A DNA stretch of 62,305 bases from assembly GCA_020630675.1 (NCBI GenBank), contig JAHDIR010000009.1, positions 17,876 through 80,180 on the forward strand. The letters are read 5' to 3'. This DNA is from Bdellovibrionales bacterium. Lineage in GTDB: Bacteria > Bdellovibrionota > Bdellovibrionia > Bdellovibrionales > UBA1609. Shown piece by piece: positions 51,741 to 58,749 of this stretch (position 1 is the first letter of the stretch; the number at the start of each line of letters is the position of its first letter). The notes under the pieces are model-generated. The model was given only the letters and a program-made list of their open reading frames with translations, made no database searches and was not told the origin of the DNA. The position numbers and the translations under genes are program-made.

Positions 51741-52274
51741 TTAAATTTGTCGATCAGCAGTCGGCGCTTTTGGCAACTTCACTGTGACTCCCAGATGGTC
51801 CATTTTACTTTTAATGGACTCTCCTGGGCTTTGAACAACTCTTTGTTGTAGCTTAAGAAATATAGGCTCACGAATTGCTAGCTTGTTATCTTGTAAGACA
51901 CATTGACGAGCTAATTTTTTACTCACGTTAAAAACAACAGGAGCCTTTAGGTTAGCTGTCATATCTGTAGGATCATCAGGAATAGTGACAATATTAAAGA
52001 AAGTACATTGCTCAGGGCTATCAGCATCTATTTGATTGAGATCTCTTGGGCTAATACCATAAGTTTTAGGGGCTCCAAAGAGCTCGGGCTCAAGAACAGG
52101 GAATGCTACTTTAGGGTCTTCACAACTTTGAAGCCAGGCAAAAATCTCATCTTGAGGGTCATCTAAAAGAACAAACTGTTTCAACTGAGCAAAACCTAAA
52201 AGGCCTTCCCTGAAAGTGACAATATCTTCTTGAGTGATGGATACAGTTCCAAATCTAGATGTTCTTATGTCCAT
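51741..52274 (-). CDS. fliW: flagellar assembly factor FliW
   Basis: FliW binds free flagellin and also CsrA, so rising cytoplasmic flagellin frees CsrA to repress flagellin translation. The 177-residue product (slightly longer than Bacillus FliW) has the family pattern FREGLLGFAQLKQFVLLDD, FAWLQSCEDPKVAFPV and LKAPVVFNVSKKLARQCVL. The ATG has GGGGGA. It lies 171 bp after csrA with a gap that shows only a small ACAAG/CTTGT hairpin. Confidence 0.95.
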   Translation of the reverse strand: MDIRTSRFGTVSITQEDIVTFREGLLGFAQLKQFVLLDDPQDEIFAWLQSCEDPKVAFPVLEPELFGAPKTYGISPRDLNQIDADSPEQCTFFNIVTIPDDPTDMTANLKAPVVFNVSKKLARQCVLQDNKLAIREPIFLKLQQRVVQSPGESIKSKMDHLGVTVKLPKAPTADRQI

Positions 52275-52445: not shown

Positions 52446-52679
52446 TTATTTGTTGTTTTTTAATAGATCTGAAACTTTTCTGGTTTTTTCGGCGGTAGAT
52501 GTCGCAGAAACTTCGTTTTCTGTTTGAATGGACTCATAGACTTCTTCGCGATGAATTTTAGTTTCACGAGGGGCTTCAATTCCGAGCCTCACTTGCTTAC
52601 CCTTGATTTGCACAACACGAATTTTAATATTGTCGTCTATAGCGATGCTTTCGCCTAGTTTTCTTGTGAGTACTAACAT
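52446..52679 (-). CDS. csrA: carbon storage regulator CsrA
   Basis: A 77-residue RNA-binding regulator. MLVLTRKLGESIAIDDNIKI, RLGIEAP and HREEVY are the family hallmarks, with Arg in the R44-equivalent region. The C-terminal tail is slightly long. The true start is the ATG at 52679, behind AAGGAG. The leader also reads GGATG just before the Shine-Dalgarno, so two GGA motifs are available for auto-regulation. A sigma-70-type promoter with perfect TTGACA lies upstream. Position next to fliW is the conserved FliW-CsrA flagellin-control arrangement. Confidence 0.96.
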   Translation of the reverse strand: MLVLTRKLGESIAIDDNIKIRVVQIKGKQVRLGIEAPRETKIHREEVYESIQTENEVSATSTAEKTRKVSDLLKNNK

Positions 52680-52736
52680 GTGAGGGGGTCTCCTTCGACA
52701 TCCTATCAAAGCACAAATCCATTTTGTGATTAGGCA

Positions 52737-56758: not shown

Positions 56759-57457
56759 TTAAGCCTGGCTAGCCTCAGGGCCTGAGGACATTTTCCAGTA
56801 TAAAGACTGCTGAGGCTGAGTGACATTTCCCAATTCCTGCCCCCCATTTAAAGAGTCACCTATTTTTAAATCTTCATTTATGGTTCCGGTAAAACCTAGC
56901 AAAGAAGAAACGCCTTGCGGATGTGAAACTTCAATGAATTTTTGATCTTGATGAGAATATATGTTTTTAATTTGTCCACTCCATGGAGATGTGACCTTGG
57001 ATGAGTTCAAATTTAGTTTCTCAGGGTTCAAAATATAAGTAAGATCTTTTTCAGTAGCTTTTACTTTGATTGGTATTGCTGAAGACTCATTGGCTTTTTT
57101 ATTTTTTAAAAACCGAGAGCCCGACTCAATAGGGATCGGACCATTTGGTTTTTGAATATTTTTGTTTTTAAAATGTCTTTCTTTAATTTGCTCAAAAATT
57201 AAATCAGCTAAACCAATCCCCCCTTTATCTCCCCACTTTTCTACGTATTGGTTATCTAGTTGGTTTTGATAAATATTCTCGGCGTAACCTGGCTTTGACA
57301 AAGAACTATGGCTTACAGTTTTTTTCATGGCTTTCATGATCTCGCGAAGAAATTGTTTTTCATACATTTTAGAGGCGTCACGAAGTTTTGCCTCTTGGGC
57401 TTTTGCATCCATTTTAGGTCGTACTGAAAAATTTTTTTTGAGTTTGATTCCGTTCAT
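56759..57457 (-). CDS. flgJ: FlgJ-type rod-binding protein with degenerate LytM-like C-terminus
   Basis: A 232-residue protein. The N-terminal half is a FlgJ rod-binding domain (KLRDASKMYEKQFLREIMKA, GIGLADLIFEQIK). The C-terminal half is not the muramidase of enteric FlgJ. It looks like a decayed M23/LytM beta domain (SPWSGQIKNIY, KFIEVSHPQGVSSLLGF, LKIGDSLNGGQELGNV, LYWKM) in which the HxH metal motif is missing. Two starts are possible (57457 and 57412). Neither has a Shine-Dalgarno, and nine T residues lie just before the first. See the structured RNA immediately upstream. Confidence 0.85.
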   Translation of the reverse strand: MNGIKLKKNFSVRPKMDAKAQEAKLRDASKMYEKQFLREIMKAMKKTVSHSSLSKPGYAENIYQNQLDNQYVEKWGDKGGIGLADLIFEQIKERHFKNKNIQKPNGPIPIESGSRFLKNKKANESSAIPIKVKATEKDLTYILNPEKLNLNSSKVTSPWSGQIKNIYSHQDQKFIEVSHPQGVSSLLGFTGTINEDLKIGDSLNGGQELGNVTQPQQSLYWKMSSGPEASQA

Positions 57458-57465
57458 AAATAAAA

Positions 57466-57650
57466 AAAAATGGGGTTGTGAGCTTTAGAAGTTTCGTGCA
57501 TCCTGCACTGTTGCAATATCAGCCAATGTTTGGTTCTATCTTTCCTGAGTTTCCTGCTAGAAATTCTGGATCTCTCGACCTTCCTTGGTACTACGTTCTT
57601 TAGCTCACCGCCCCCAATGTTCGATAGAAACTACCGAACAGACTCTATTT
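57466..57650 (-). ncRNA. candidate CsrA-binding structured RNA or attenuator between flgI and flgJ
   Basis: On the minus strand TGGGG-GCG-GTGAGCT (57602-57616) pairs with AGCTCAC-AA-CCCCA (57471-57484), closing a domain with 117 nt inside. Nine T residues follow, as in an intrinsic terminator. The domain contains four GGA motifs: CAGGA at 57501-57505, 57543-57547 and 57552-57556, and AAGGAAGG near 57582. One is displayed in a perfect GTGCA-GGA-TGCAC hairpin (57496-57508), matching the CAGGAUG repeat of CsrB RNAs. A further hairpin, GTTCG/CGAAC with inner TAG/CTA, lies at 57619-57639. No open frame fits. Exact ends are unknown. Confidence 0.55.
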
Positions 57651-57702
57651 TACCTTTAAATGTTTAAATTATTAACACTATCCACCAAAAACTTGACCTT
57701 CT

Positions 57703-58749
57703 TCATAGTATTTCTAGATCTCCCTGAAGTGCGCCAGCAGCTTTAATATTCTGTAAAATGGTGATTAAATCTGTTGGAGAAACACCTAGTTTGTTCATGG
57801 CTTTCACAACATCTCCCACCTGACTTCCTTTATTCATAAGAAAAACAGCATGATCCTCGGCTGGACCTGGACCTTTTTCAGACCCTGAATCACTCGCTAT
57901 ATTTCGTCCAGCACCAGCTGCTGGCGAAACTTTAATGCTTAAGTCACCATGACTTATGGCTATAGGAGATATTTCTACCCCATCGCCCATTATCACGGTT
58001 CCTGTTTTTTCATTAATCACTACTTTAGCTTTTATGTCTGGTGAGACCTGAACTCTCTCAATGGTGGCTAAAAGCTCGACGCCTTTTCCCTCATAATTAG
58101 GAGGAGCTACAATATCAATCGTAGAAGCATCTAAAGCAGTGGCATACTTTCCGCCTAACTCAAGGTTGATTGTCTTTACAATTCGAGCCGAAGTTGTAAA
58201 GTCTGGATTATTAAGAGTTAAGCGATAGAGTTTACGGTTAGTAAAATCTCCTCCAACATCTCTTTCAATCAATCCCCCATTCGGGACTCTACCCACGGTT
58301 TCAATGGATCCTTTTGTCGACTCACCTAATATGACTGAACCTTGAGCCACCGCATACACTTTTTGGTCCGCAGCCCTTAAAGGGGCCTGAATAAGGGTTC
58401 CCCCTCTTAAACTTTTTGCACTCCCAATAGCGTTAACCACCACATCAATTTTATTTCCTGAACGAGAAAACGCCGGCAAATCTGCAGTTAAAACCACTGC
58501 CGCGATATTTTTACTGGAAATGTCTTCCATGCCTTTAAGATCTACTCCAAGCTTTGTGAGCATACGACGAACAGAGTTTTGAGTGTACTTTAAAGAGCCG
58601 TCGCCAGTTCCACTTAAGCCAACAACCAAACCGTATCCCACCAATTGATTGCTGCGTACGCCACGTATATTAGCTATATCTTTAATTCTTGCAGCATTCA
58701 CTTCAAAAGAAATAAATAAAAAAAGTAAAAAATAAATAAATAGCTTCAT
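57703..58749 (-). CDS. flgI: flagellar P-ring protein FlgI
   Basis: A 348-residue periplasmic P-ring subunit with signal peptide (about 1-18). Family marks are ARIKDIANIRGVRSNQLVGY, GLVVGLSGTGDGS, VVLTADLPAFSRSGNKIDV, and the C-terminal VVKAMNKLGVSPTDLITILQ, then NIKAAGALQGDLEIL. Start overlaps the flgH stop as ATGA. It is the last gene before the structured RNA region. Confidence 0.97.
   Translation of the reverse strand: MKLFIYFLLFLFISFEVNAARIKDIANIRGVRSNQLVGYGLVVGLSGTGDGSLKYTQNSVRRMLTKLGVDLKGMEDISSKNIAAVVLTADLPAFSRSGNKIDVVVNAIGSAKSLRGGTLIQAPLRAADQKVYAVAQGSVILGESTKGSIETVGRVPNGGLIERDVGGDFTNRKLYRLTLNNPDFTTSARIVKTINLELGGKYATALDASTIDIVAPPNYEGKGVELLATIERVQVSPDIKAKVVINEKTGTVIMGDGVEISPIAISHGDLSIKVSPAAGAGRNIASDSGSEKGPGPAEDHAVFLMNKGSQVGDVVKAMNKLGVSPTDLITILQNIKAAGALQGDLEIL

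Follow-up and report, generated by a model that had tools for sequence, protein, structure and literature searches.

A conserved GGA-hairpin RNA between flgI and flgJ in Bdellovibrionia, a probable CsrB-like antagonist of CsrA

Results

In a Bdellovibrionales bacterium (assembly GCA_020630675.1, contig JAHDIR010000009.1, positions 17,876 to 80,180; this whole stretch of 62,305 nucleotides is called the window), the flagellar genes flgI and flgJ are separated by a gap of 245 bp on the minus strand. The locus raises the question of whether this gap encodes an RNA of its own and whether such an RNA acts on the regulator CsrA. A first-pass annotation of the sequence had proposed a CsrB-type RNA with several GGA motifs or an attenuator of flgJ. 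We found that a conserved RNA structure on the minus strand of the gap is real in the Bdellovibrionia. The core of the proposal, a CsrB-type GGA-hairpin RNA, is supported by this conserved structure and its GGA pattern and by a published transcript of Bdellovibrio bacteriovorus HD100.

A DNA search within the family recovered the gap in several genera, and the same kind of sequence was present in all 27 loci with a fully read gap, the window included. A covariance model built from 26 of these 27 copies gave one strong match per genome in 105 of the 144 genomes of the class (E values 9e-45 to 3e-5), and all of these matches belonged to this same class. FlgI was present in 124 of the 144 genomes, including all 105 that carry the RNA. 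The 37 order- and class-level matches fetched with their flanks all directly follow flgI, the 26 family copies having been taken from the gap itself, and flgJ is located downstream in each of the 37 except one, whose locus ends there. No good match of the model was found outside the flgI-flgJ gap. Matches with E values of about 0.005 to 0.03 (G046 C3, G035, G083, G202, and G015) were rejected as chance, and neither flgI nor flgJ was matched near the three weak matches that were fetched (L128 to L130). In a pattern scan of named genomes, matches occurred only in records labelled Bdellovibrio, Bdellovibrionaceae, Pseudobdellovibrionaceae, Bdellovibrionales, or Bdellovibrionia and in one labelled Proteobacteria.

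Nineteen genomes with FlgI had no model match. Inspection by eye revealed a divergent or contig-cut copy in 11 of them (G220, G222 to G225, G227, G228, G231, G247, G248, and G267), and in three (G020, G203, and G232) contig ends prevent a judgement. In the other five (G221, G226, G229, G230, and G233) the RNA is absent and flgI and flgJ are nearly adjacent, which indicates that flgJ does not need the element. These losses, in the genus g44, are natural deletions; relatives (L135, L136, and L170 to L174) retain a rewired copy.

The structure was then assessed by covariation. In an alignment of 70 sequences, which was fitted to the model and is hence biased toward it, 91% of the paired cells were standard pairs, compared to 40 to 61% when the pairing was slid. 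Both sides had changed in 20 of the 32 pairs versus 13.0 in shuffles (none of 500 reached 20), and the number of cells changed on both sides was 157 versus 48. A sequence-only alignment of 26 copies, which was not model-fitted but whose structure was derived from its own averaged single-sequence folds, gave 91% pairing versus 35 to 49% when slid, and 13 pairs with both-side changes versus 8.7. The last hairpin, hairpin 4, alternates between GTGCA/TGCAC, GCGCA/TGCGC, GCACA/TGTGC, and GTACA/TGTAC around a near-constant GGA, and its stem pairs covary as UA/CG/AU/GC and GC/AU.

The motif A(N)GGA was retained at four sites, in 69, 70, 60, and 69 of the 70 sequences, and 61 of them also showed a 5′ hairpin that presents GGA in the loop; several of the other nine have this hairpin with a mismatch. 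The mean number of hairpin-loop GGA motifs was 3.64 per RNA, compared to 1.16 in shuffles; several such motifs are thus kept by selection, a feature of the CsrB type. Taken together, the model matches, the covariation, and the four A(N)GGA sites bear out that structure and GGA pattern are kept in relatives. The CsrA consensus obtained by systematic evolution of ligands by exponential enrichment (SELEX) is RUACARGGAUGU, with a preference for GGA in a hairpin loop (PMC7652899), and the common 5′ hairpin forms ACACAGGATGTGT and ACACATGGATGTGT resemble it. Divergent copies (L131, L132, L135, L136, and L170 to L174) retain several GGA hairpins, while their other sequence is rewired.

One model match (C1, positions 499407-499585, plus strand) is located in genome G179, a single contig of 3,782,950 bp, which we take to be that of B. 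bacteriovorus HD100. The coordinates were checked with a c-di-GMP-I-GGC riboswitch match (E value 2e-11) at 1073867-1073950 (minus strand), which falls inside the published merRNA (1,073,741-1,074,185, minus strand). This aptamer (L167, 368-451, minus strand) scores slightly below the Rfam gathering score of its family. At the position of our match, Karunker et al. (2013) reported APsRNA1 (499,375-499,581, plus strand, 207 nt), with 50,451 reads per kilobase per million (RPKM) in the attack phase versus 3,181 RPKM in the growth phase, a 16-fold difference (PMC3627812). Its start was mapped by tobacco acid pyrophosphatase (TAP) treatment and its end was estimated from read coverage; it was published without a function and, Rfam having been checked, without significant homology outside B. 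bacteriovorus (PMC3627812).

The model match lies within APsRNA1 save for 4 nt at the end of the T-run, and this T-run contains the published end of the transcript. Folding of the exact transcript gave z -4.3. A discrete non-coding transcript with its own start and end, stopping at the T-run as the proposal implied, thus exists for the HD100 member. The first-pass annotation had further inferred that the RNA is released by processing or termination of the flgFGAHI transcript. An own promoter is more likely, because the TAP-mapped start is located 32 nt ahead of the match, just before the 5′ GGA hairpin, and a -10-like TACAAT ends 6 nt upstream of this start. Directly after APsRNA1, HD100 carries a second terminator-like hairpin, AAAGGTACATCCGTACCTTT, with a T-run (L169), and further hairpins follow the RNA in L095, L098, L104, and L109.

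In the window, the minus strand of the gap forms a 5′ hairpin (57640-57618); a closed domain and the T-run come after it. The fold of 181 nt has an energy of -54.8 kcal/mol compared to -38.2 kcal/mol in dinucleotide shuffles (z -4.3; 0 of 200 as stable). The elements described in the first-pass annotation were all recovered: the long-range closing stem of GGGG/GTGAGCT (57614-57602) with AGCTCAC/CCCC (57484-57472), nine T residues directly after the domain (57470-57462), four GGA motifs (57584, 57554, 57545, and 57503), the perfect GGA hairpin GTGCAGGATGCAC (57508-57496), and the tandem GGA CAGGAAACTCAGGAAA. The GGA count of the window core alone equals chance (4 versus 4.0 expected), so that the case rests on the comparison with relatives. 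The window copy is among the poorest, having lost GGA from the 5′ hairpin and hairpin 3 and gained one extra tandem GGA. A plus-strand RNA, which folds equally well, was rejected: it is the complement of a palindromic region, whereas it is the minus strand that carries the genes and the T-run and corresponds to the published transcript. The parts are as follows, all on the minus strand.

57647-57675: promoter-like TTAATA-17-TAAAAT with a predicted start at about 57640, from a consensus scan that alone gives no more than the chance number of sites; same place as TACAAT ahead of the mapped APsRNA1 start
57618-57640: 5′ hairpin TGTTCGGTAGTTTCTATCGAACA, no GGA here; most relatives have ACACATGGATGTGT with loop GGA (fold, comparison)
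57465-57618: conserved RNA domain, covariance-model match of 101 bits
57602-57614: closing stem, 5′ side, GGGG..GTGAGCT (fold, covariation)
57578-57589: hairpin 1 ACCAAGGAAGGT, loop GGA at 57584-57582 (A(N)GGA in 69 of 70 relatives)
57550-57563: hairpin 2 TTTCTAGCAGGAAA, CAGGA on the 3′ side, GGA at 57554-57552 (A(N)GGA in 70 of 70)
57543-57545: extra GGA of the tandem CAGGAAA-CT-CAGGAAA, specific to the window's lineage (sequence, alignment)
57520-57533: hairpin 3 remnant ACCAAACATTGGCT; relatives have GCCAAGGATTGGC (GGA in 60 of 70, lost here)
57496-57508: hairpin 4 GTGCAGGATGCAC, loop GGA at 57503-57501 (covarying stem; A(N)GGA in 69 of 70)
57472-57484: closing stem, 3′ side, AGCTCAC..CCCC (fold, covariation)
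57462-57470: tail of an intrinsic terminator (nine T), 4 nt ahead of the flgJ ATG; an equivalent T-run ends HD100 APsRNA1

According to the open reading frames of the window, the gap is preceded by flgF-flgG-flgA-flgH-flgI and followed by flgJ-flgM-flgN-flgK-flgL-csrA-fliW, all on the minus strand. The products of flgI, flgH, flgJ, flgM, flgN, flgK, csrA, and fliW were checked against Pfam, and the remaining genes were named by reading. As the first-pass annotation had stated, csrA and fliW follow on the same strand at a distance of about 5 kb and the flgJ ATG (at 57457) has no Shine-Dalgarno sequence.

57703-58749, minus: flgI, P-ring protein (PF02119, 5e-112)
56759-57457, minus: flgJ-like rod-binding protein (PF10135, 5e-11)
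52446-52709, minus: csrA (PF02599, 1.3e-26; residues L4, R6, R44, E46, and N55)
51741-52274, minus: fliW (PF02623, 3e-34)

The mechanically called csrA reading frame begins at a TTG 10 codons early; the conserved and likely start is the ATG of MLVLTRK. The window CsrA also has a C-terminal tail, and L4 and R44 count as RNA-binding residues. R6 and E46 are needed for the RNA-binding activity of CsrA, and N55 for antagonism by FliW (PMC11934962). The RNA co-occurs with csrA in 100 of the 105 RNA-bearing genomes and with FliW in 97, the misses being mostly fragmented assemblies; the two genes are located some 5 kb downstream of the RNA. The presence of csrA was rejected as a discriminator, 334 of the 369 genomes of the phylum having this gene.

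The same gap was also analyzed outside the Bdellovibrionia. In the 150 nt after flgI of 22 genomes of family f12, which we call Bacteriovoracia (a class name deduced from the make-up of the phylum), there were 35 GGA hairpins, compared to at most 12 in 100 shuffles. Typically two GGA hairpins are present, the second located no more than about 20 nt from the flgJ start and covering the Shine-Dalgarno sequence, with a TANNNT box upstream. These leaders (L183 to L189 and L204 to L216) resemble CsrA-repressed leaders of a csrA-encoding operon. In 19 genomes of other families we counted 60 GGA hairpins versus at most 42 in shuffles; CAGGAAAC and GCTAGGATGG elements recur in these gaps, some of which have a terminator-like hairpin. 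Families f20, f22, f24, f26, and f27 (L178, L180 to L182, and L191 to L203) have a longer GGA-hairpin RNA with recurring CAGGAAAC and CCTGCTAGGATGGTGGG. Terminator-like hairpins were seen in L180, L191, L193, and L194, and the flgJ start is within a strong hairpin in L178 and L181. In the genomes compared (G047, G049, G085, G094, G151, and G316), csrA is located 4 to 5 kb downstream on the same strand. GGA hairpins heading the flgJ...csrA-fliW operon thus look ancestral in the phylum, as a putative CsrA-bound leader. In this putative order of events, the form found in the Bdellovibrionia would have arisen from such a leader by enlargement and by gaining a terminator and a free-standing state.

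Discussion

We propose, with a probability of roughly 70%, that the gap RNA of the Bdellovibrionia is a non-coding small RNA (sRNA) that acts like CsrB/RsmZ by titrating CsrA. Its transcription would begin at a dedicated promoter, located where flgI ends, and stop at a terminator made of the long closing stem and the T-run. Once folded, the RNA would offer as many as five or six likely CsrA sites, short hairpins that carry A(N)GGA in the loop, and would thereby titrate CsrA off the mRNAs that it targets. The HD100 member, APsRNA1, reaches high levels while the cells swim in the attack phase; it is then that mRNAs repressed by CsrA, probably flagellar ones, would have to be released. The RNA would work alongside the protein antagonist FliW. 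An effect on motility or predation would be a further inferred step. CsrA titration appears the most likely function because of the five to six sites, the discrete and abundant transcript, and the persistence of the sites in divergent copies whose remaining sequence is rewired.

Several observations weigh against this proposal. The GGA hairpins are predicted CsrA sites; such hairpins are also present in CsrA-repressed leaders, and binding need not mean sequestration. The window copy has only three conserved GGA sites left, and with its terminator 4 nt before flgJ, flgJ must be expressed via read-through, which leaves room for a role in cis. Five species of genus g44 (L137 to L140 and L175) have flgI without the RNA. 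Finally, the 16-fold enrichment of APsRNA1 in the attack phase is not exclusivity, and its abundance is far below that of merRNA.

The leading alternative is a leader or attenuator of the flgJ-flgMNKL-csrA-fliW operon that acts in cis, in which binding of CsrA to the GGA hairpins decides on termination at the closing stem, the operon adjusts itself, and the short RNA is the terminated leader. The RNA does head an operon holding csrA and fliW, read-through is required in the window, the Bacteriovoracia gap with its second hairpin over the Shine-Dalgarno sequence has the layout of a CsrA-repressed leader, and a hairpin contains the flgJ start in some of the other classes. We nevertheless consider this explanation rather unlikely: HD100 makes a discrete transcript and has a second hairpin with a T-run immediately behind the first, the distance between RNA and flgJ ranges from 4 to several hundred nt, the five species without the RNA retain a close flgI-flgJ pair, and five or six sites exceed the needs of a leader. 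Attenuation and titration are moreover compatible, because a leader that ends at the terminator can at the same time serve as a sponge.

A structured sRNA with a CsrA-independent job, by base-pairing or through another protein and with merely structural GGA loops, is considerably less probable still. Most bacterial sRNAs act by base-pairing, the CsrA sites are only predicted, and the CAGGA of hairpin 2 is partly within a stem; however, it is in the GGA loops that the sequence is nearly invariant, next to covarying stems, and divergent copies keep several GGA hairpins despite rewired sequence. That the gap holds a chance fold or an ordinary terminator, as the chance-level GGA count of the window might suggest, is practically refuted by the class-wide model matches, the covariation, and the published transcript.

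Like CsrB/CsrC and RsmX/Y/Z of Gammaproteobacteria, the RNA is a separate sRNA that has a promoter and a terminator, exposes (C)A(N)GGA in the loops of several hairpins, differs in abundance between phases, and, as proposed here, sequesters CsrA. In contrast to these RNAs, its hairpins are enclosed in a multibranch domain whose closing stem is that of the terminator, and it is encoded in a flagellar operon upstream of csrA-fliW, together with FliW. The window gap matched no Rfam family at gathering score and gave only chance-level matches up to E=10, and relatives and HD100 gave no relevant match; the covariance models of CsrB, CsrC, RsmY, PrrB_RsmZ, and other Rfam sequence families were thus not matched. 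The absence of FliW that characterizes the gammaproteobacterial Csr circuit does not apply either, because 97 of the 105 genomes with the RNA encode FliW. The RNA would thus work like CsrB but, as tested, outside the Rfam CsrB/Rsm families and the FliW-free circuit.

APsRNA1, encoded at the same locus and strand, is the family member with a mapped transcript; whereas it was published for B. bacteriovorus only and without a function (PMC3627812), we describe a class-wide family with CsrA-type sites. CsrA-repressed leaders such as those of glgC, hag, and Campylobacter jejuni flaA have two GGA hairpins, one on the Shine-Dalgarno sequence, like the Bacteriovoracia gap. The Bdellovibrionia form differs by its five to six sites, its terminator, and its discrete transcript, and in the window its GGA sites precede the terminator instead of covering the flgJ start. 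The flaA leader is likewise an RNA antagonist of CsrA in a FliW-bearing bacterium, but it is an mRNA with two sites (PMC4894983), whereas ours would be a dedicated non-coding RNA.

In the literature outside subscription we found no paper linking sRNAs of Bdellovibrio with CsrA, and its titles and abstracts report no sRNA in the flgI-flgJ gap. A machine-learning paper predicting CsrA-regulating sRNAs does not mention Bdellovibrio. Across genomes, BarA-UvrY, the driver of CsrB/C, and FliW are strongly anti-correlated (PMC4682653). Whether FliW and an sRNA act jointly on CsrA in any species was still to be determined according to a 2020 review (PMC7652899), and a 2025 paper raised such control for Geobacter from predicted sRNAs only (PMC11934962).

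The RNA described here is a concrete candidate case of joint action of FliW and an sRNA on CsrA, among bacteria thought to control CsrA only via FliW and in a predator that can be cultured and whose transcript is abundant and has been mapped. It offers a likely function for APsRNA1, an orphan since 2013, and would extend CsrB-like RNAs to a phylum where we found none reported. The RNA probably originated from a leader of the flgJ-flgMNKL-csrA-fliW operon that was bound by CsrA, and the Bacteriovoracia still show such a form; this origin is a plausible path from an mRNA leader to a free sponge, for which the losses in one genus are natural controls. We regard it as an even call whether a CsrA-binding element heads flgJ...csrA-fliW throughout the phylum and became, in the Bdellovibrionia, a free sponge with promoter and terminator. 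If this is true, dedicated dual control of CsrA by RNA and protein may help the predator to switch between attack and growth phases.
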